25,602 nt of DNA from a virus. Position numbers and translations under genes: made by a program. Under the pieces are notes generated by a model. The model was not told the DNA's origin. It saw nothing but the letters and a program-made list of their open reading frames with translations, and did no database searches. The DNA lies in the IMG/VR virus record IMGVR_UViG_3300037245_000782, positions 1 to 25,602 of that record. One strand, 5' to 3'. Within the stretch, counting starts at the first letter, position 1, and each line of letters begins with the position of its first letter. This document shows, in pieces, positions 10,064-23,915 of the stretch.

Positions 10064-10932
10064 TATATAAACCTTCCTGCGCCCGGTATATTGGGCAAAT
10101 TAAAACCATTATTAAGTCCATTATTAAATCCTCCTCTATGACCACGAAGAACCCATGATTGATCTTGCTCTTGTACAAACTTCTCTCTTGCGTCCATACC
10201 CTTCGCTCTTGGTAGGTACACTTCTTCTATTTCTTCTGTAAGTCTATCCTGCAATCTTTGACTTTGAGTCCTAGTATACAATAAATGTATCGCCAACTGC
10301 CGCCATAAAACATCTACGAAGTGAGGTGGAAAATCAGTTACTGTTAAGTCAGCCAAAACTCTTATGTAGTCCATCTCAACATCGTCATTCACCAGATTTG
10401 TCAGTATCCAATTTCCTTTACGAGTCCAATCAGGAACTGGTACGCCGCCGTCACGCATCTCTGTAACTCTAATTGAAGCAGGGCGGGCAAATCTATACTT
10501 ATACCGCTTGGATGTCCACTGTGCCGTGCCTGTGGCATCGTCAGCGACAAACGTAGCGGTAATATAAAAAGAATCTACATCTACTTTCGTAACAGTGAAT
10601 TCGCCGTTGTAACTTGTTGTACCAGTGATACATGCTAGGTCGCCTGTAACTAATCCATGTGTCGTAGACGAAACTAAGACCGTTCCGGCCACAGTGCCTG
10701 AATAATCTGCAAATGCCGTTATCGCTGTATTATCGACATTAACATCTGATATATCCCATCTTGCAAACAACCATCCTTCTTCTGGGCCAATACCTAATGT
10801 CTGAGCTACGACAGTTTCCCATATAGCATTGAACTCATCAGCAGATGTTGTGCCGTCAGTATCGACATCAGTAAACGCTTGTTCTCCAATGCGTATCATT
10901 GACATGTTGGCTAATTCAGTTTTAGTACTCAT
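10063..10932 (-). CDS. Tail adaptor (tail tubular protein A-like) with an inserted beta module, 289 aa
   Basis: This is the ring that joins portal to nozzle. Family features are the N-terminal helix (ELANMSMIRIGEQAFTDVD, with an EFNAIWETVVAQTL helix), EGWLFARWDI near residues 52-61, and the C-terminal half: KYRFARPASIRVTEM, GNWILTN, VEMDYIRVLADLTVTDFPPH and a long C-terminal helix. Between DI (about 61) and KRYKYRF (about 142) there is an additional stretch of about 80 residues. It contains THGLVTGDLACITGTTSYNG and FTVTKVDVDSFYITATFV, a beta module found in many phage structural proteins and resembling the E1 FCCH domain. Typical adaptors (about 190-230 aa) lack it. The ribosome site is AGAGG before ATG at 10932, and a strong hairpin lies just upstream (10950-10971). 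Confidence 0.87.
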   Translation of the reverse strand: MSTKTELANMSMIRIGEQAFTDVDTDGTTSADEFNAIWETVVAQTLGIGPEEGWLFARWDISDVNVDNTAITAFADYSGTVAGTVLVSSTTHGLVTGDLACITGTTSYNGEFTVTKVDVDSFYITATFVADDATGTAQWTSKRYKYRFARPASIRVTEMRDGGVPVPDWTRKGNWILTNLVNDDVEMDYIRVLADLTVTDFPPHFVDVLWRQLAIHLLYTRTQSQRLQDRLTEEIEEVYLPRAKGMDAREKFVQEQDQSWVLRGHRGGFNNGLNNGFNLPNIPGAGRFI

Positions 10933-16081: not shown

Positions 16082-17755
16082 TTATAAGCCCCACTTGAGA
16101 GGAGAGTAATCTGTTTGTTCTTGATAGCCACCGCCTACTGGTTGTAGTTCAAAGTCGCTTAGGTTCATTAAAGCCAAGAGAAGGTAATTTAAACAATGTC
16201 GATAATGTTCGTTCTTATCTCCAACCGGACGGTATCTGTAAACTCTGTCGCCAGTATCTGTATTAACCTCTAAGGTCTTGGCTGTATTGCATACTTCTTT
16301 TGCAAATATATTAACTTCTTCGCATTTACGTGGTATCTCAAGCTTGCCACTTCGCACCCACGACTGAGACTTGTCCATCATCTCTGTACGAGACACAACA
16401 TATAATCCGCTTTCCTCGTCCGTCTTAACCATAACACGTTGTTTATCACGGTACTCCGAACCAAAGACCTTAACCCCAATACCGTCGCATCGCTTCTGGA
16501 ACTTTCTAAATGACTCTTCGTAAGGTCGTAAACAAATAACAGCACTCTTGACATTGAACTGCTGAACAAGATCGAACAAAGCATCAAACCCAGAAATACG
16601 AGCCATATAGATTATCTTGGCTTTCTCTTCGCCCTTTTTCTCTGCTATAACAACACGGTTGGTCTTCATTATATCGGCGGCCATACATGTAGGAGTGACC
16701 GAAGTAGTCTTCATATTGTCGTTACCACAGCAACTAAACACGTCCTGCTGTACCAATCTATCTTCTATAGGGATATAAGCATGGCCTAAATACTTATTCA
16801 TAAACAAGCCCATCATACTTTTATCAAGCTGGGCCTTTTCGTATTTCGCCATTACCAGGCTAAGATTACACTTTGGAGTTATGAAGTGAGATACATGATA
16901 GCCACTTACACCTTCCATTGGATAGTCTGGGTTATACCTCTCAGGGTATTTAGCAACATAATAACCATTATTTACATATATTTCTTTACCACATTTTATA
17001 CACCCATAATACGGACTAAACTTGCCATGAGATGTCTCTTTTTTATATTTAACTGAATTCGGAAACTCGTCAGCGATACAAGTAAACTCATTACAAGCCT
17101 CGCACTTAACCATCCAATGCTTCTGATCGGACTCACCAAATATTCTATCAATACCAAAATCAGGAATAGTAGGAGTTCCAAGGTCTACAACTCTTTGTAA
17201 GTCTGAGCCAAGAAGTCTATCTTCGGTCATCTCAGCCATCTCGTCATCAAACAAGTCACGCTCGTCTCGAATAACTGAATCAGCCGGAGTAGACCGAACA
17301 GCATTAGAGTCCTTCTTACCCTGAATATTAGCCGTAGCCTTACAACCCAACAAAGAAAGCATTGCCTTGCCAACCTGCTTAATAGAAACACTATCAGTGC
17401 GCTTAAGGTGCTTCTTAATACAAGGGTTATCCCTAACTAGAGGAGTAAAGCGAGTCTTAGAAAAACCCTCAACCGCAACCTTGTCTGGGAAATAGTAAAT
17501 AGAACCCTGTGGATAATACCGATATATCAAAGCATGAATCTCACGCAACATAAACGCAGTAGTAATACGAGCCTGCGCACCCTTAATAACAGCAATATGC
17601 CGGGCAGGGTCACGCATGATGTCGCCCATGTACTGACAACCATCCAGAGTGAACTCAATACCACCAAGTAGACGTACCTTGCTTCGCTCTGCCCAGAAAC
17701 AGCAGTCAGCTTGCATCATCTTCTCTAGAAGTTTTGGGTCGTCTGTTATGTCCAT
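16082..17755 (-). CDS. Terminase large subunit, lambda GpA-like, 557 aa
   Basis: This is the DNA-packaging motor ATPase and nuclease. The ATPase part has a degenerate Walker A region (IKGAQARITTAFML, residues 57-70), the YYFPDK strand (87-92) and a Walker B-like SVIRDERDLFDDEM (160-173, acidic pair D164/E165). A zinc knuckle typical of GpA-type terminases follows: C218, C221, C252 and C255. The nuclease half starts near CMAADIMKTNRVVI (D361 as the likely first metal ligand). It ends with EHYRHCLNYLLLAL and a C-terminal tail. Length is normal for a compact GpA protein. AAGG lies before the ATG at 17755 and partly overlaps a possible promoter -10 element (17762-17767). A second pair of ATGs 36-39 bases downstream also has a GAGAAG site. 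Confidence 0.95.
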   Translation of the reverse strand: MDITDDPKLLEKMMQADCCFWAERSKVRLLGGIEFTLDGCQYMGDIMRDPARHIAVIKGAQARITTAFMLREIHALIYRYYPQGSIYYFPDKVAVEGFSKTRFTPLVRDNPCIKKHLKRTDSVSIKQVGKAMLSLLGCKATANIQGKKDSNAVRSTPADSVIRDERDLFDDEMAEMTEDRLLGSDLQRVVDLGTPTIPDFGIDRIFGESDQKHWMVKCEACNEFTCIADEFPNSVKYKKETSHGKFSPYYGCIKCGKEIYVNNGYYVAKYPERYNPDYPMEGVSGYHVSHFITPKCNLSLVMAKYEKAQLDKSMMGLFMNKYLGHAYIPIEDRLVQQDVFSCCGNDNMKTTSVTPTCMAADIMKTNRVVIAEKKGEEKAKIIYMARISGFDALFDLVQQFNVKSAVICLRPYEESFRKFQKRCDGIGVKVFGSEYRDKQRVMVKTDEESGLYVVSRTEMMDKSQSWVRSGKLEIPRKCEEVNIFAKEVCNTAKTLEVNTDTGDRVYRYRPVGDKNEHYRHCLNYLLLALMNLSDFELQPVGGGYQEQTDYSPLKWGL

Positions 17756-17761
17756 GTCAGC

Positions 17762-17790
17762 CTTATAACATATGTTTGTTAGTTTGTCAA
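17762..17790 (-). promoter_or_regulatory. Candidate sigma-70 promoter at the large terminase gene
   Basis: Reading leftward, TTGACA (17790-17785), 17 bases, TATAAG (17767-17762) is close to consensus. It shares TTGACAAAC with the promoter at 20468-20495. The -10 ends only six bases before the ATG, so a transcript from it would begin at or next to the start codon. It lies in the 68-base gap behind the exonuclease gene. Confidence 0.5.
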
Positions 17791-17823
17791 GATAATAATT
17801 AGAATGTTAAGTAAATAGTTAAC

Positions 17824-18321
17824 TTATCTGTCTTTTATTTCTTGTAGATACTCATACGCCCTTTTAGTCCAGCAAGCGTCAAATAAAGCATCATGCTCAT
17901 CCTTACCTATCTCTGGAAGTTTTGGATTACCTAGGCTATCGCACAGTTGCTTTACATCTTTAGTGTACATCGGCATACCTTCAGGTAAATCCATCATCGT
18001 ACCAAATAACCAGCATAAAGCAACGTGGTCGTAATCTGCATAATAAGCCCATAGTTCAATAGGATGGTCTTTAGTAGGTAATATAAAGTCTATCACTGCG
18101 TCCCTAATCTCGCATCTCGGCATCCAAAACGATAGACTCTTAGGAGGCAACTTAGATATTACATTATCCTTAACCCAATCACTAGCCTTCGACTCGTCAA
18201 ACTCATTCGAAATTGCATAGAAGCTTCGGCCGTTCTCGTCCACAATCCCAATACTTATCAGGTCAATACAGCCCGGATATTCGATAAATTCTGTATCGTA
18301 AAAGAACTTTCTTTTGCTCAT
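17824..18321 (-). CDS. DEDDh 3'-5' exonuclease (RNase T/exoribonuclease-like), 165 aa
   Basis: A single-domain RNase H-like exonuclease. Catalytic residues are visible: D9 and E11 in FFYDTEFIEYPG (Exo I), D96 or D98 in YYADYDHVAL (Exo II), and H143 with D148 in EHDALFDACW (Exo III, H-x4-D, the DEDDh type). The IDLISIGIVDENGRSFYAIS stretch is the usual second and third strand. It resembles small stand-alone 3'-5' exoribonucleases of phages and actinobacteria rather than polymerase proofreading domains. It uses two metal ions to remove 3' nucleotides, perhaps from RNA, to recycle nucleotides or trim message. The GAGAGG ribosome site overlaps the end of the 57-aa gene just upstream, so the two are probably coupled. 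Confidence 0.85.
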   Translation of the reverse strand: MSKRKFFYDTEFIEYPGCIDLISIGIVDENGRSFYAISNEFDESKASDWVKDNVISKLPPKSLSFWMPRCEIRDAVIDFILPTKDHPIELWAYYADYDHVALCWLFGTMMDLPEGMPMYTKDVKQLCDSLGNPKLPEIGKDEHDALFDACWTKRAYEYLQEIKDR

Positions 18322-18866: not shown

Positions 18867-19058
18867 CTACTCCTGTCCTTTATTTCTTGAGTGGGGTAAG
18901 CTTAAAATATCTCGCCTTAAACTTGTTGTGGATAAAGGCATGGCAGAGGTCTTGAATTGGCTAAATGACTTAGGTTTAACTGTGGACTCTATAGAGGATG
19001 ACCCTACCCCCGGTTCCCCCTCCCCCACCCCTTGTCTTTTCGGATTCTTGTTTATCAT
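18867..19058 (-). CDS. Small low-complexity protein of unknown function, 63 aa
   Basis: The ATG at 19058 overlaps the TGA stop of the Zn-finger gene (ATGA), with AAGG seven bases upstream, and its stop lies inside the ribosome site of the next gene. It is the only open frame between those two genes. The product is Ser/Gly/Lys-rich (GVGEGEPGVGSSSIESTVKP) with no fold that I recognise. The coding stretch contains G-runs that depart from the usual composition. Support is positional only. Confidence 0.45.
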   Translation of the reverse strand: MINKNPKRQGVGEGEPGVGSSSIESTVKPKSFSQFKTSAMPLSTTSLRRDILSLPHSRNKGQE

Positions 19059-19579
19059 GGCTGTACCTTCCATTGCGGTATCTTCTGTCCGTCTTCGGTC
19101 AGCTCCTTGCACGTCCATGTTATTAGCCTGTAGCATATCTCTGCATATTCGCTTGAAGCCTTCCATGCCTGCCCTGTGTAGGTGCTTACTGCTCGGTGTA
19201 GTTCTTGACTGGTCTTGGTGGCTGTGTCTGCTGTTGGCTGCCCTGTGGGTCGCATGACACCGCCTGGTAGCTTGGCTTTGGCCTTATCCCATTGTGTGTT
19301 GATTACGGGTGTTTGTTCGGGTTGCTCTAAATTCTTATCGTCCGTATTTCCAGAGCCTGAGAGGGGTTTTTGTTCGTTTTGGGGTGTAATTTCAGGCTCT
19401 TTTGTTACGGTTGGAGCATTATCAGTGGGATTTACACTGTCTTTTGCTATGGCTTGGTCTATTTCTTGTGTGGTTACTGGGTTGGTTCTGCCTCGATAAG
19501 CGGCCTGCTTGCAAGAGACCGAACAATACTTGCCTTTACCCGATACCGCTTTATTGCATTGTAAACAGTGTTTGCTCAT
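19055..19579 (-). CDS. Zinc-knuckle protein with disordered linker, 174 aa
   Basis: The N-terminus has a small zinc site, C5-x2-C8-x10-C19-x3-C23, in the wording CLQCNKAVSGKGKYCSVSCK followed by AAYRGR, like short Zn fingers in many phage and bacterial proteins. A low-complexity Pro/Thr/Gln/Glu-rich linker (about residues 35-95) follows, then a helical C-terminal domain (about 120-174) with AWKASSEYAEICYRLITWTC. GGGAGAAG precedes the ATG. Position just downstream of the small terminase and upstream of the exonuclease suggests a nucleic-acid related accessory, but partner and role are unknown. Confidence 0.75.
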   Translation of the reverse strand: MSKHCLQCNKAVSGKGKYCSVSCKQAAYRGRTNPVTTQEIDQAIAKDSVNPTDNAPTVTKEPEITPQNEQKPLSGSGNTDDKNLEQPEQTPVINTQWDKAKAKLPGGVMRPTGQPTADTATKTSQELHRAVSTYTGQAWKASSEYAEICYRLITWTCKELTEDGQKIPQWKVQP

Positions 19580-20431: not shown

Positions 20432-20648
20432 GCTTAAATCCCTTGTGTTTGTTGCTTTGTTTCTTATATTATACAGTGTGTTAACTGTTTGTCAAACTAA
20501 TTCCAAGGGTTTTTGGTTTATTTTTACAGTCTATTCCCTATTTGCAGTAAAATGCAGTATTATAGTGGATTTGTTTAATGTTATTGGGTATATTTAACGA
20601 TAGTAAGAGTATTGATGTTAATCGTATTTTATCTTAAGGGTTTTAATT
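20432..20648. promoter_or_regulatory. Divergent control region between leftward and rightward operons
   Basis: This 217-base AT-rich gap separates the two transcription directions. Its left third holds the strong leftward promoter. The middle has two direct repeats TGCAGTA (20543-20549 and 20553-20559) ten bases apart, one helical turn, suggesting a regulator site. The right third ends in the ATGTTAAT box (20615-20622) and AAGGG before the first rightward gene. No good rightward sigma-70 promoter is visible. Confidence 0.6.
20468..20495 (-). promoter_or_regulatory. Near-consensus sigma-70 promoter for the terminase operon
   Basis: Leftward: TTGACA (20495-20490), 16 bases, TATAAT (20473-20468), with the first ATG at 20431. 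Both hexamers are perfect. Two short palindromes overlap it: GTTTG-T-CAAAC (20487-20497) across the -35, and ACAGT-6-ACTGT (20473-20488) filling the spacer. They could be operators for a repressor. Confidence 0.85.
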
Positions 20649-20804
20649 ATGGCAACGACAAGAGATGTCATCGAAACAATGAAACAAGCTATTGAGGATC
20701 ATCCGCTTGTGTGCTCCGAGTGTGGATCATGGAAACATGCCAGCGAGATGATATGCGAACAATGCAGAATTGATATTACTGTTGAAAATACATCTACACT
20801 TTAA
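20649..20804 (+). CDS. Small zinc-ribbon protein, 51 aa, first gene of the rightward operon
   Basis: ATG at 20649, AAGGG ten bases upstream, stop at 20804. A zinc site is plain: C22-x2-C25-x10-C36-x2-C39, in the wording LVCSECGSWKH then MICEQCR. An N-terminal helix (RDVIETMKQAIED) precedes it, and a short acidic tail follows. Small ribbons of this kind are common among phage early proteins that bind nucleic acid or host transcription proteins; which applies here is unknown. It leads a run of twelve small rightward genes. Confidence 0.75.
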   Translation: MATTRDVIETMKQAIEDHPLVCSECGSWKHASEMICEQCRIDITVENTSTL

Positions 20805-20819
20805 TAAAGGGATTTAACC

Positions 20820-21005
20820 ATGCAGACTATCGAAAGAACAATAGAAGTTACAAAACAGAATCGCACTAATAATATATATATCTGTTATATTGAGCTAGAT
20901 CGCTTTGGTGTTTCGCTTGCCAAACGTGTATTATTTAGCAGTTGTGCAGATTACGAGCTTGATTCTAATCTTAAGCAGGCTGAAAACCTTAAACATATCT
21001 ACTAA
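20820..21005 (+). CDS. Small protein of unknown function, 61 aa
   Basis: AAAGGGATTTAACC precedes the ATG, 15 bases after the previous stop. The product has a Lys/Arg/Thr-rich N-terminus (ERTIEVTKQNR), strands (NIYICYIELDRFGVSLAKRV) and a charged C-terminal helix. The sequence could form a small beta-beta-alpha unit. No family is recognised. The tight spacing shows co-expression with its neighbours. Confidence 0.7.
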   Translation: MQTIERTIEVTKQNRTNNIYICYIELDRFGVSLAKRVLFSSCADYELDSNLKQAENLKHIY

Positions 21006-21019
21006 CTATCGGAGTCATT

Positions 21020-21226
21020 ATGTCACTAACTAAAAAAGAAGTCAAAGCAAATGCCGATGAGGCTTATATTCGATACGCCCGCTTAAGCAAGCTTGGATCA
21101 TATCCTGGCAAGAACTTTGATCCAAAAAACGGGTCGTTTGACATTGAAAGAGATATTTGTAAATGCAACGCCCTTGAAGCTCACGGTGAGCACGTTGCTT
21201 ATATGAATGTATATAACGCTATGTAG
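21020..21226 (+). CDS. Small protein of unknown function, 68 aa
   Basis: GGAG lies seven bases before the ATG, 14 bases after the previous stop. An N-terminal helix (KKEVKANADEAYIRYARLSK) is followed by a loop with GSYPGKNFDPKNG and a short His/Cys-containing segment (DICKCNALEAHGEHVAYMNV). The cysteines and histidines are too few for a confident zinc site. Function unknown. A 15-base pyrimidine tract of C-runs directly follows the stop. Confidence 0.7.
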   Translation: MSLTKKEVKANADEAYIRYARLSKLGSYPGKNFDPKNGSFDIERDICKCNALEAHGEHVAYMNVYNAM

Positions 21227-21282
21227 CCCCCCCCTCCCCCCTTGCCGATGTAATCCGGTCGTATGCTTCAATGCTAGCAAGG
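21227..21282 (+). repeat. Poly-C tract and inverted repeat in the gap after the 68-aa gene
   Basis: Eight C, one T and six C (21227-21241) lie immediately after the stop codon, in otherwise AT-rich DNA. CCTTGC (21240-21245) can pair with GCAAGG (21277-21282) across 31 bases. The ATGTTAAT box of the next gene follows at 21290. Confidence 0.55.
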
Positions 21283-21320
21283 TGTTTAAATGTTAATTAT
21301 CTTATTGAAAGGGTTTAAGA

Positions 21321-21641
21321 ATGAATGCAATGAAATCAAAAGACGGGTTAAGAAGGTTTGATGTTACGATTAAAATCAGGGTTTCACTTTGGGATTTGCT
21401 TGTTGTGGCGTGCTCTTATACTGAACAAACAGACAAACGGCTCGCAAGTACCTCGGCCATCATCGCCGAATACAAAAAGACCACTTTAGAGTATGGGCAG
21501 TTTTGGGATACTGACATTTGGTGTGATGATTTTACAAAAGTTTGTAGGAATGAATTTCCTTATTATATCGACCTGATGGGGCTTTATTTCAATTCCCTAG
21601 ATGTTGAGCATGCATACAAAACTCTTCAGATGTACTGTTAA
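21321..21641 (+). CDS. Protein of unknown function, 106 aa
   Basis: AAAGGG sits about eight bases upstream of the ATG, and the ATGTTAAT box is 31 bases upstream. The product shows a strand-rich start (RRFDVTIKIRVSLWDLLVVA), where a hydrophobic stretch of about 10 residues is too short to be a membrane span. A middle helix and an aromatic C-terminal half (FWDTDIWCDDFTKVCRNEFP) with three Cys and many Tyr/Asp follow. I do not recognise it. The context implies an early, probably non-essential phage protein. Confidence 0.72.
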   Translation: MNAMKSKDGLRRFDVTIKIRVSLWDLLVVACSYTEQTDKRLASTSAIIAEYKKTTLEYGQFWDTDIWCDDFTKVCRNEFPYYIDLMGLYFNSLDVEHAYKTLQMYC

Positions 21642-21655
21642 CCCTTTTAACCTTC

Positions 21656-21686
21656 AACCGGCCATCGGTTCTTATCGGTGTCCGAT
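21656..21686 (+). promoter_or_regulatory. Double hairpin in the leader of the 69-aa gene
   Basis: AACCG-GCCAT-CGGTT (21656-21670) and ATCGG-TGT-CCGAT (21674-21686) are two perfect five-pair stems in tandem. The ATGTTAAT box follows at 21690-21697, 38 bases before the start codon. The second hairpin, with a five-pair stem and three-base loop, is followed by A/T-rich sequence but not by a long T-run. Confidence 0.55.
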
Positions 21687-21727
21687 TAAATGTTAATCTT
21701 TTATTCTTATTAAGGGAGTATTGAAAA

Positions 21728-21937
21728 ATGAGCATTTCAACAGACATTGCAACACGGTACAAAGAAGAACATGCCCTTATGCTATCGGCATTGAGTAATC
21801 TATCAATGGAGCATAAGCAAATGAACAACATGCTTACATCTCTTGGCAGGGGTGTGTCTGAGGACAGCGTTTCACCTGCTGGTATGGCCGAGGCTGCTAT
21901 ATTAACAGTCACAACAAAGGTTAAAATGAAATCCTAA
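21728..21937 (+). CDS. Small helical protein of unknown function, 69 aa
   Basis: AAGGGAG lies about ten bases before the ATG. The N-terminal half is a Met/Leu-rich amphipathic helix (TRYKEEHALMLSALSNLSME), and a Gly/Ser turn leads to a second helix with a lysine-rich end. The heptad-like spacing suggests a small coiled-coil dimer. No recognisable domain. It is a member of the rightward small-gene operon. Confidence 0.7.
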   Translation: MSISTDIATRYKEEHALMLSALSNLSMEHKQMNNMLTSLGRGVSEDSVSPAGMAEAAILTVTTKVKMKS

Positions 21938-22029
21938 TTAAACCCTTCAACCAACCCGCCGGGCCTTCTCTCGGCTGGCTGTTAAATGGTTTTAATGTTA
22001 ATTATGTTTAATCTTATGGAGTATGTATT

Positions 22030-22644
22030 ATGAAAGAGTCAAAACTAGTAAAAAGTCAGTCTAAAAAGTTGCCCGCTATTAGATACACTGAAAACGGGTC
22101 AGTTTACAATCTGATTATATCATTGCGATATGATGACAATTGCGGTAATGGTCATAATTCGTTCGCTATTACTGCCGATATACGTTCAGGTACTCGATTA
22201 GAGGCTTGCGGTTGCTGTCATGACGATATAATCAAACATGCCCCTGAATACGCTCATCTTATTAAATGGCATTTATGTAGTTCTGACGGCCCTATGTATT
22301 ATGTCGCTAATACTGTTTACAATGCAGATCAACATGGTCCCACTAAATGTCATATTAAATTCAATGACGAAAAAAACGGACTAACACAGTCTAGCCTTAA
22401 GTATTGCCAGATTAAAGAAGGTCAGGCAATAGTCGATTCTCACCCCGATCTATATTCTATGGAGATAGACTTATCTACTGCTAAAGAAGCCAACTATGAC
22501 CATGCCCGTTCAAATGCCATATGGCCCGAAGCTACTGATGAAATGCTGGCTAGTCCTGACCTAAAGGACGCCCTAGATGCTCGCCTACCCTCCTTGCTGG
22601 CTGATTTTGCCGCTACAATGGAATCGCTAGGCTTTACCTATTAG
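22030..22644 (+). CDS. Conserved hypothetical phage protein, 204 aa
   Basis: The largest gene of the rightward operon. The middle resembles a protein I know from several phages: GNGHNSFAITADIRSGTRLE, then ACGCCHDDIIKHAPEYAHLI, KWHLCSSDGPMYYVANTVYN. The C-G-C-C-H-D-D and W-H-L residues are in the same places and could bind metal. A two-helix C-terminus ends ADFAATMESLGFTY. Function is unknown in the family. GGAG lies about ten bases before the ATG. Confidence 0.82.
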   Translation: MKESKLVKSQSKKLPAIRYTENGSVYNLIISLRYDDNCGNGHNSFAITADIRSGTRLEACGCCHDDIIKHAPEYAHLIKWHLCSSDGPMYYVANTVYNADQHGPTKCHIKFNDEKNGLTQSSLKYCQIKEGQAIVDSHPDLYSMEIDLSTAKEANYDHARSNAIWPEATDEMLASPDLKDALDARLPSLLADFAATMESLGFTY

Positions 22645-22650
22645 ATCGAA

Positions 22651-22682
22651 ACGCCTTCGGGCGTCTACCGTTTGTTGCGGTA
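22651..22682 (+). promoter_or_regulatory. Tandem hairpins (one with UUCG loop) before the 67-aa gene
   Basis: ACGCC-TTCG-GGCGT (22651-22664) is a perfect five-pair stem with the stable UUCG loop. TACCG-TTTGTTG-CGGTA (22666-22682) follows at once. Then come AT-rich DNA and the ATATTAAC box (22697-22704). There is no T-run, so termination is unlikely; message protection or processing is more plausible. Confidence 0.6.
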
Positions 22683-22725
22683 CTGATGAGATCATTATAT
22701 TAACCCCTTTTAAGGAGTATTAACG

Positions 22726-22929
22726 ATGAAAAACCCAAAGATAGAATTTGAAGACACTGGCGAAGTCAAGTTATATGTCCGGTCAATGGGTAAAATGCTG
22801 CGAATTACTGCCGCTTTCACTGATACCGATAAAACAAATGATTATCTGGCTAAACATGACGATCAAGGTGTTGTTGCCGAAATTGAAAGCACTATCTTAA
22901 TTGCTAACCTTTACGACAAAGGAATTTAG
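22726..22929 (+). CDS. Small protein of unknown function, 67 aa
   Basis: AAGGAG lies ten bases before the ATG. The product is predicted to be beta-rich at the start (EFEDTGEVKLYVRSMGKMLR, then ITAAFTDTDK), with a helix and strand after it (NDYLAKHDDQGVVAEI). It is acidic overall, with no cysteine. The next gene starts after a three-base gap, so the pair is translated together. Function unknown. Confidence 0.7.
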   Translation: MKNPKIEFEDTGEVKLYVRSMGKMLRITAAFTDTDKTNDYLAKHDDQGVVAEIESTILIANLYDKGI

Positions 22930-22932
22930 ACG

Positions 22933-23187
22933 ATGAGTTACTCACAGGCTATGAGATGGCATAAGAAGCACCCCAGAGGCGGCAAGGCTCAATATATGGG
23001 CTTTGATACCTCATCGGCCCCTATATTCCAGACAGAAGCGGAGATCAGAGAGTTTCACCGCACTAAATACCTTAGCTATCACTATAAGAACAAAACCAAT
23101 AAAGATATAGTGCAGTCAGAAGACGCCTATGTTAAAACGTCCCAAGAATGTTACCAAAGAGATTTAATCAAATGGAATAATCGCTAA
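22933..23187 (+). CDS. Conserved hypothetical phage protein, 84 aa
   Basis: Its start, MSYSQAMRWHKKHPRGGKAQ, resembles a short protein found across several phage groups with the wording (M)(S/T)YSQA.RWHKKHPRG, so I consider it real and conserved. The rest is polar (TEAEIREFHRTKYLSYHYKN) and rich in Lys/Tyr/His. AAAGGA precedes the ATG, and the gene follows its neighbour after three bases. Function is unknown; the basic N-terminus suggests nucleic-acid binding, but this is only a guess. Confidence 0.75.
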   Translation: MSYSQAMRWHKKHPRGGKAQYMGFDTSSAPIFQTEAEIREFHRTKYLSYHYKNKTNKDIVQSEDAYVKTSQECYQRDLIKWNNR

Positions 23188-23193
23188 CCCTCT

Positions 23194-23238
23194 CCCCTCT
23201 CACCGTGTCGGCGTGTGGCATTCAATTGCAATGAGGGG
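23194..23238 (+). repeat. Long-range inverted repeat in the gap after the 84-aa gene
   Basis: CCCCTC (23194-23199) pairs with GAGGGG (23233-23238), enclosing a GC-rich stretch and a small CATT/AATG stem. The GGATTAAC box (23237-23244) overlaps its end, 28 bases before the next start. Confidence 0.5.
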
Positions 23239-23264
23239 ATTAACCTATTATAAAGAAAGGATTT

Positions 23265-23573
23265 ATGAACATGTACACATCAACCATAATTGAATCAGTA
23301 ATAGACTGCGGGCTTAAAAGCCTGTGTGACGAGGATATTAAAAACATCGAAAAAGACTTAAGAGGTGCTTTTGTCTTTGCTTTGCAAGACCAACAGTTTA
23401 TAACCCTATTTGAGACCCTTCTAAAGAAAGCTCGAACTCACATTGCCAAGACTGACCCCCAATGCGGTCAACCTCACACACCAGCAACTCACCTTGACGA
23501 CCGTATAGCACTTGCCTTACATAACCTTAAGAAGGCTAAAGAACAAAGGTATGACTTAATGCTGAAGATTTAA
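23265..23573 (+). CDS. Helical protein of unknown function, 102 aa
   Basis: Two nearby starts are possible: ATG at 23265 (GGA three bases upstream) and ATG at 23271 (GGA nine bases upstream, better spacing). The product is helical and charged: a short first helix, then FVFALQDQQFITLFETLLKK (35-54), a polar loop with DPQCGQPHTPATH, and a Lys-rich last helix. No family is recognised. It sits in the rightward small-gene operon. Confidence 0.7.
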   Translation: MNMYTSTIIESVIDCGLKSLCDEDIKNIEKDLRGAFVFALQDQQFITLFETLLKKARTHIAKTDPQCGQPHTPATHLDDRIALALHNLKKAKEQRYDLMLKI

Positions 23574-23591
23574 ACCAGAAAGGGCGTTATC

Positions 23592-23657
23592 ATGATTGAT
23601 TTCTTTTTCCCCTTAACCGTGTTAATGTTTTATCGTATTGTAAGGAGATGCTTGTGA
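23592..23657 (+). CDS. Possible 21-aa hydrophobic microprotein
   Basis: ATG at 23592 with AAAGGG about eight bases upstream. The product is MIDFFFPLTVLMFYRIVRRCL, given here as residues 1-20 MIDFFFPLTVLMFYRIVRRC plus L. A hydrophobic half and basic C-terminus resemble a small membrane peptide. Its TGA overlaps the GTG start of the next frame (GTGA). The frame is short and could be chance; overlap and ribosome site are the only support. Confidence 0.4.
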   Translation: MIDFFFPLTVLMFYRIVRRCL

Positions 23658-23737
23658 AAACTATTGTCGGATTACTATTAACCCTTATATTGCTGGCTTG
23701 GCTGGCAGAACAGGAACAAAATGAGCAAGAAAGATAA
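23654..23737 (+). CDS. Probable 27-aa single-span membrane peptide
   Basis: GTG at 23654 with AAGGAG seven bases upstream. The product begins with MKTIVGLLLTLILLAWLAEQ and ends in a Glu/Gln/Arg tail. The first 18 residues form one membrane span. It overlaps the helix-turn-helix gene by 17 bases. Such small spans occur in phage holin-like or membrane-modulating peptides. The near-perfect ribosome site makes it more convincing than its length suggests. Function is unknown. Confidence 0.55.
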   Translation: MKTIVGLLLTLILLAWLAEQEQNEQER

Positions 23738-23915
23738 TCGCTATGTCAATGTTAAACAGGTTGCCGAGATGTTCGGCTGTTGCGTCCGTAAAGTCCATTA
23801 CATGCAAGCTGCCGGAGAACTGCCAAATACCTGTCATTTCCCTGGCGTTGGCTTTACAAGGTGGAAAAGGAAAGAGATCGAGCAGTTTATTGAAGATGGC
23901 TTTAATGCAGAATAG
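23721..23915 (+). CDS. AlpA/MerR-like helix-turn-helix protein, 64 aa
   Basis: A compact winged helix-turn-helix of the excisionase/AlpA type: YVNVKQVAEMFGCCVRKVHY (8-27), where VKQVAEMFG-x-x-VRKVH is helix 1-turn-recognition helix. The wing MQAAGELPNTCHFPGVGFTRW and the last helix KRKEIEQFIEDG follow. The order 'LP...GFTRWKRKEIEQFI' is characteristic of the family. It probably regulates transcription or acts as a recombination directionality factor. No integrase is present here, so regulation of this operon or the divergent promoter is the more likely role. It is the last rightward gene, followed by a terminator. Confidence 0.8.
   Translation: MSKKDNRYVNVKQVAEMFGCCVRKVHYMQAAGELPNTCHFPGVGFTRWKRKEIEQFIEDGFNAE

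Follow-up and report, generated by a model that had tools for sequence, protein, structure and literature searches.

Comparison of the window, the whole 25,602-nucleotide stretch of DNA that was analysed (a 25.6 kb virus record from a tailed phage), with an uncultured relative, L049, showed that four leaders in the early gene clusters of the two match in colinear order. Because these leaders keep their order and nearly their entire sequence although unrelated genes follow them, it is concluded from the sequence comparison that fixed leader positions hold exchanged genes, and the leaders are judged to be real regulatory sites. The repeats would be regulatory leaders that one phage lineage conserves at set places in its cluster of early accessory genes.

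The window encodes leftward head and tail genes (GpA-type terminase, Head-tail_con portal and GP7 capsid) and a divergent rightward cluster, the last gene of which (23721-23915) encodes an HTH_17/Xis-like protein. No near relative of the window was found in the annotated phage set, and searches for Rfam families and tRNAs gave none. In the leaders a box, a T-rich tract and a ribosome site recur, and the stretch from the preceding stop codon to the box often contains hairpins and C-rich sequence. The features are as follows.

20649 to 23915, plus strand: rightward cluster of small, mostly ORFan genes, divergent from the head and tail genes.
20615 to 20648, plus strand: leader 1, with the ATGTTAAT box, a T-rich tract and an AAGGG ribosome site, preceding the first rightward gene (20649-20804).
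21227 to 21320, plus strand: leader 4, with a C-run, a weak hairpin, the box at 21290 and AAAGGG, preceding the gene at 21321-21641.
21642 to 21727, plus strand: leader 5, C-rich after the stop codon, with a hairpin (z -2.7), the box at 21690 and AAGGGAG, preceding the gene at 21728-21937.
21938 to 22029, plus strand: leader 6, C-rich after the stop codon, with a hairpin (z -1.9), GCTGTTAAATGGTTTTAATGTTAATTA including the box at 21995, and GGAG, preceding the gene for a 204-aa protein (22030-22644).
22645 to 22725, plus strand: leader 7, of a second type, with two small hairpins and TATTAACCCCTTTTAAGGAGTATTAACG, preceding the gene at 22726-22929.
23188 to 23264, plus strand: C-rich start, hairpin (z -0.8) and GGATTAAC, preceding the gene at 23265-23573; an unsupported member.
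23619 to 23653, plus strand: GTGTTAAT upstream of the GTG start at 23654; a doubtful member.
20468 to 20495, minus strand: leftward sigma70 promoter TTGACA-16-TATAAT (12/12 consensus, score 14.8), outside the module and given for contrast.

Leader 4 (21289-21316) matched L049 10468-10442 at 26 of 28 nt (E 2e-5), leader 6 (21971-22004) matched L049 10042-10009 at 32 of 34 nt, 27 of them in one identical run (E 5e-10), and leader 7 (22698-22729) matched L049 9427-9397 at 31 of 32 nt (E 2e-9). The match of leader 5 (21682-21697 with L049 10230-10215, 15/16 nt) had an E value of 0.24 when taken alone, but it lies at the colinear position. The ribosome site and start region of leader 1 could be aligned with L049 10449-10428 (20/22 nt, E 0.005). 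The longest exact runs common to the window and L049 were 27 and 25 nt, compared with a maximum of 16 nt in 200 shuffles and 13 nt on the opposite strand. The genes behind the four colinear leaders were unrelated, with Smith-Waterman Z values of 0.1, -1.3, -0.4 and 0.1 between window and L049. Since the proteins shared by the two phages are so diverged that unselected DNA should not stay similar, we infer that either selection on the leader or repeated homogenising recombination is needed. The original prediction of a 'reusable promoter or RNA-processing cassette' is borne out as far as reuse is concerned, as the module recurs in two related phages with colinear leaders and differing genes; its RNA-processing part gained no specific support. 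For the question of how phages can exchange small host-takeover genes and still keep them expressed, the PeSLs and SAS/ESAS elements discussed below are the main known cases. Leaders that stay near-unchanged and colinear against differing cargo, large terminase and portal could offer handles for cargo genes and for the factor that reads them.

The two relatives that carry the module, L049 and L051, are both uncultured. A scan of 2.9 million viral contigs for a box followed by a spacer, a ribosome site and an ATG, which may miss other lineages with diverged boxes, resulted in 34 stretches; many of these were coding and the rest isolated, with several leaders only in L020, so that a wide spread in phages was rejected. 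L020, of which L049 is the whole record (18.5 kb), contains three such leaders on one strand. An exact 21-mer search returned only L020 and L048, and the L048 match was a coding coincidence. A lone leader before a gene in L044/L028 was set aside, as this contig has no detected relation. The gene layout of L049 is that of the window, a divergent small-gene cluster followed by a small-terminase homologue (29% identity) and a zinc-finger-like protein (39%), with a large terminase (Terminase_3) and a portal (P22 type) of families other than those of the window. L051 was identified by a protein search with the zinc-finger-like protein that adjoins the small terminase, and a methyltransferase-like gene in it is preceded by its one boxed leader, in which the hairpin is strong (-23.5 kcal/mol, z -6.3). 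L052 has the zinc-finger-like protein in common with the window, but no box was seen in it. Among GenBank phages only weak DNA matches were obtained, and no prophage or host relatives were found in the genome collection.

The positions and distances proposed for the boxes proved correct throughout: those at 20615, 21290, 21690, 21995 and 23619 are located 34, 31, 38, 35 and 35 nt upstream of the starts at 20649, 21321, 21728, 22030 and 23654, respectively, ATATTAAC at 22697 is 29 nt upstream of 22726, and GGATTAAC at 23237 is 28 nt upstream of 23265. Of the six long gaps in the rightward cluster, four contain the exact ATGTTAAT, 31-38 nt upstream of the start. As originally noted, it is absent before the tightly packed genes at 20820, 21020 and 22933 (gaps of 15, 14 and 3 nt). 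Over the whole window and both strands RTGTTAAT was observed 6 times versus 2.7 expected, with at least 6 copies in 5 of 100 shuffles, a weak genome-wide enrichment. Five of these six copies have one orientation and lie upstream of genes in one 3 kb cluster; across 3,000 dinucleotide shuffles RTGTTAAT was found in at most 2 of the six long gaps. The enrichment over shuffled gaps that had been expected was confirmed, as no 8-mer was common to four gaps in 2,000 dinucleotide shuffles. Leave-one-out scores were 9.8-20.4 for eight of nine sites, and in a scan of 237,000 positions, with a profile built from the same leader sites that the scan recovers, all hits of at least 16 bits were leaders, plus one antisense hit within a leader gap. 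Among 25 early leaders, 7 had ATGTTAAT between -22 and -45, versus none of 36 late leaders. The box ends 21-30 nt upstream of the start, in a small sample of eight good box sites from three phages.

The list of boxes originally drawn up holds for ATGTTAAT at its four gaps, and three further sites have to be judged differently. GTGTTAAT at 23619 scored -0.4 bits against the other sites in the leave-one-out analysis and lies within a possible 21-codon ORF (23592-23657); it may be a chance occurrence. For GGATTAAC at 23237 no support as a module member was obtained and no L049 counterpart was found. ATATTAAC at 22697, described as a diverged box, belongs instead to the second, separately conserved type of leader (leader 7). 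A gap of over 60 nt and a hairpin are not obligatory companions of the box, because the L049 box at 10467 lies in a gap of ~30 nt without a hairpin.

Hairpins between the stop codon and the box, which had been said to precede most boxes, have, taken together, a clearly higher stability than shuffled sequences (Stouffer Z -7.8 for 12 gaps of the window and its relatives; about -3.5 for the five window gaps alone), but each of those in the window is weak by itself (z -0.8 to -2.7). Intrinsic terminators were rejected, as none of the listed window gaps combines a GC stem with a T run; likewise, no terminator U-tract was seen by eye at the hairpins of L049 and L051. Within 25 nt downstream of the stop codons, 118 C and 52 G were counted. 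Such a C-rich, G-poor composition is the bias of Rho loading sites, and Rho termination is only a possibility here. A homopolymer-like C8TC6 run is located at 21227-21241, immediately 3' of a stop codon.

An ordinary sigma70 promoter (-35/-10 hexamers with 15-19 nt spacing) at the boxes is disfavoured, because the boxed leaders score close to background (5.6-9.1 versus a background median of 6.5) while other operons have strong TTGACA/TATAAT elements. Clear promoters of these phages score 12-15, with 14.8 and 14.0 for the leftward operons of the window and 15.2 and 12.3 for the first early genes of L049 and L051. These two first genes have a strong sigma70 promoter and no exact box; the first rightward gene of the window has a box and no strong sigma70 promoter. 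This reciprocity, which rests on three cases, favours a promoter-like box.

The best reading is that lineage-specific, PeSL-like leaders restart expression of each cargo gene and that the box acts as a promoter of one element, recognised by a phage factor; it is put forward tentatively, with somewhat less than even confidence. The hairpin would end or insulate the upstream transcript, possibly together with Rho on the C-rich stretch, and the leader would then restart expression of the cargo gene. TTTAATGTTAAT would function as a single-element, -10-like promoter; the RNA polymerase factor that recognises it would be encoded or modified by the phage, and the resulting mRNA would have a 5' UTR of ~16-25 nt. 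Common leaders might let phages exchange cargo genes through recombination, an idea that has been put forward for the PeSLs of T4. The three partial contigs, the proteins of which are partly annotated, yielded no phage sigma factor or RNA polymerase, nor a regulator that would read the box. T4-type late promoters consist of a single AT-rich box without a -35 element at a short distance from the ribosome site and start. The module box is likewise single, AT-rich and close to the ribosome site and start, but differs in sequence and in its position on early-type rather than structural genes, and no gp55-like sigma was found. A more far-reaching version, in which the ordered leader positions with their own sequences are read by a transcription factor or an RNA-binding protein that the phage dedicates to them and unrelated host-takeover genes are inserted and replaced, is conceivable though rather doubtful.

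Nearly as likely as the promoter reading is a leader that acts on translation, which is possible and would place the function in the RNA. The genes would be co-transcribed from an upstream early promoter, the U-rich tract with TTTAAUGUUAAU would enhance initiation or be recognised by an RNA-binding regulator, and the hairpins would insulate the cistrons. Indeed, the T-rich tract and ribosome site are conserved along with the box in two leader pairs (from the box to the ribosome site in 4/d and 7/h, and up to the start codon in 7/h), which fits an RNA-level role equally well. A single strong promoter heads the cluster in L049 and L051, and the boxA-like GTTCTTTAACAATTT in the L049 leader suits antiterminated read-through. 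Although the exact box is missing at the first genes of L049 and L051, the related TTTAATAG is found there at the same distance, behind the sigma70 promoters and inside their mRNA. T amounts to 48% at -30 to -14 in early leaders versus 23% in late ones, but many of the late stretches used for comparison reach into coding sequence and are thereby biased in composition. An exact octamer is more specific than enhancement by S1 or a U-rich tract requires, and the spacing between box and ribosome site varies by several bases.

That the boxes are operators of a phage repressor or activator is unlikely. The near-palindromic TTAAtgTTAA, the presence of GTGTTAAC also inside the leftward promoter and the HTH protein encoded at 23721-23915 would fit, but the good copies all have one orientation and a narrow range of distances to the start, and neither L049 nor L051 was found to have the HTH gene. 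Cleavage by an endonuclease in the AU-rich box 3' of each hairpin, separating the cistrons, is very unlikely: a hairpin followed by an AU-rich single strand would suit it, but the L049 leader at 10467 is boxed without a hairpin in its gap of ~30 nt, and no cleavage motif was seen beyond richness in A+U. Chance similarity of AT-rich gaps bearing ribosome sites, with which the mild genome-wide enrichment of the octamer agrees, is contradicted by the gap shuffles, the profile scan and the early/late counts, and can be dismissed on the 27-34 nt leader matches to L049.

Three further candidates were rejected. A short upstream ORF that would use the ATG of the box as its start (Met-Leu-Ile) is contradicted by a single-base indel between the members of the conserved pair 4/d; moreover, most boxes are not preceded by a ribosome site, and the reading frames have different ends. 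Sequestration of the ribosome site by the C-rich stretch could be drawn in some leaders only, the others having no such complementarity. The box is not a boxA/nut antitermination site (CTTTAACA core), as it reads TTTAATGTTAAT and a boxA-like site is present only in the L049 early leader.

Among known systems, the PeSLs (promoter early stem-loops) of T4-like phages are described, in papers that cite them, as a stem-loop and an expression-start signal in the gaps between exchanged genes, with a proposed role in cargo swapping (PMC4503421, PMC3950731). As in that account, the module stays conserved in related phages while the genes on its sides are exchanged and non-homologous; it differs from it in that the boxed leaders have no sigma70-type early promoter, and occurs in another phage group. 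Hairpins are present in the leaders, and none of those in the window gaps was listed as terminator-like. In cluster K mycobacteriophages the 13 bp SAS (GGGATAGGAGCCC) overlaps the ribosome site 3-7 nt from the start, and ESAS repeats combine a conserved sequence with a SigA-like promoter (PMC3203893, PMC11373665). The module resembles these in having a short, conserved, asymmetric box in one orientation before non-structural genes of different families (none of the 36 late leaders has it), with an inverted repeat upstream of some. However, its box has another sequence and lies ~30 nt upstream, separate from the ribosome site, and its hairpins have neither a conserved sequence nor a SigA-like promoter. 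Because the module lacks the sigma70 feature of both families as well as the SAS sequence and position, it is concluded by analogy that it works like PeSLs and SAS/ESAS and is a member of neither family. In the haloarchaeal virus HGTV-1, compared by layout, a TATA-like box and an inverted repeat precede most genes in one half of the genome (PMC3950731), but the promoter is of the archaeal type.

Several additional observations were made. GTGTTAAC at 20478-20485, one base from GTGTTAAT, is located between the -35 and -10 of the strong leftward promoter. A sigma70 promoter, TTGACA-17-TATAAG, lies upstream of the large terminase (17755-17830, minus strand), and its -35 and -10 are recognisable in the near relative L003. 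On the minus strand of L049 (~11420-11330; L020 ~9250-9155) the early cluster opens with TTGACT-17-TATACT (extended -10), followed downstream by the boxA-like GTTCTTTAACAATTT; a second GCTCTTTAACATA is located near L020 5690 on the minus strand. The boxA-like sites suggest boxA-type antitermination in L049. The 204-aa protein (22030-22644) belongs to phrog_17696, of unknown function, with relatives in Vibrio, Shewanella, Achromobacter, Pseudomonas and Bacteroides phages, the Shewanella one inside the terminal repeat of KASIA. Directly after this homologue, at 10764 of L006 (KASIA), a GC hairpin is followed by ATGTTAAT 28 nt upstream of a gene for a DNA-binding protein, a single case that may be due to chance. 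The protein encoded at 19055-19579, adjoining the small terminase gene, has an N-terminal zinc-finger-like cysteine pattern. It was not found in GenBank phages by tblastn and is kept in L049, L051, L052 and L053; the motif YAE..YRLITWT is present in the proteins of both the window and L049. Between the small and large terminase genes, an Rv2179c-like 3'-5' exoribonuclease domain is encoded at 17824-18321.
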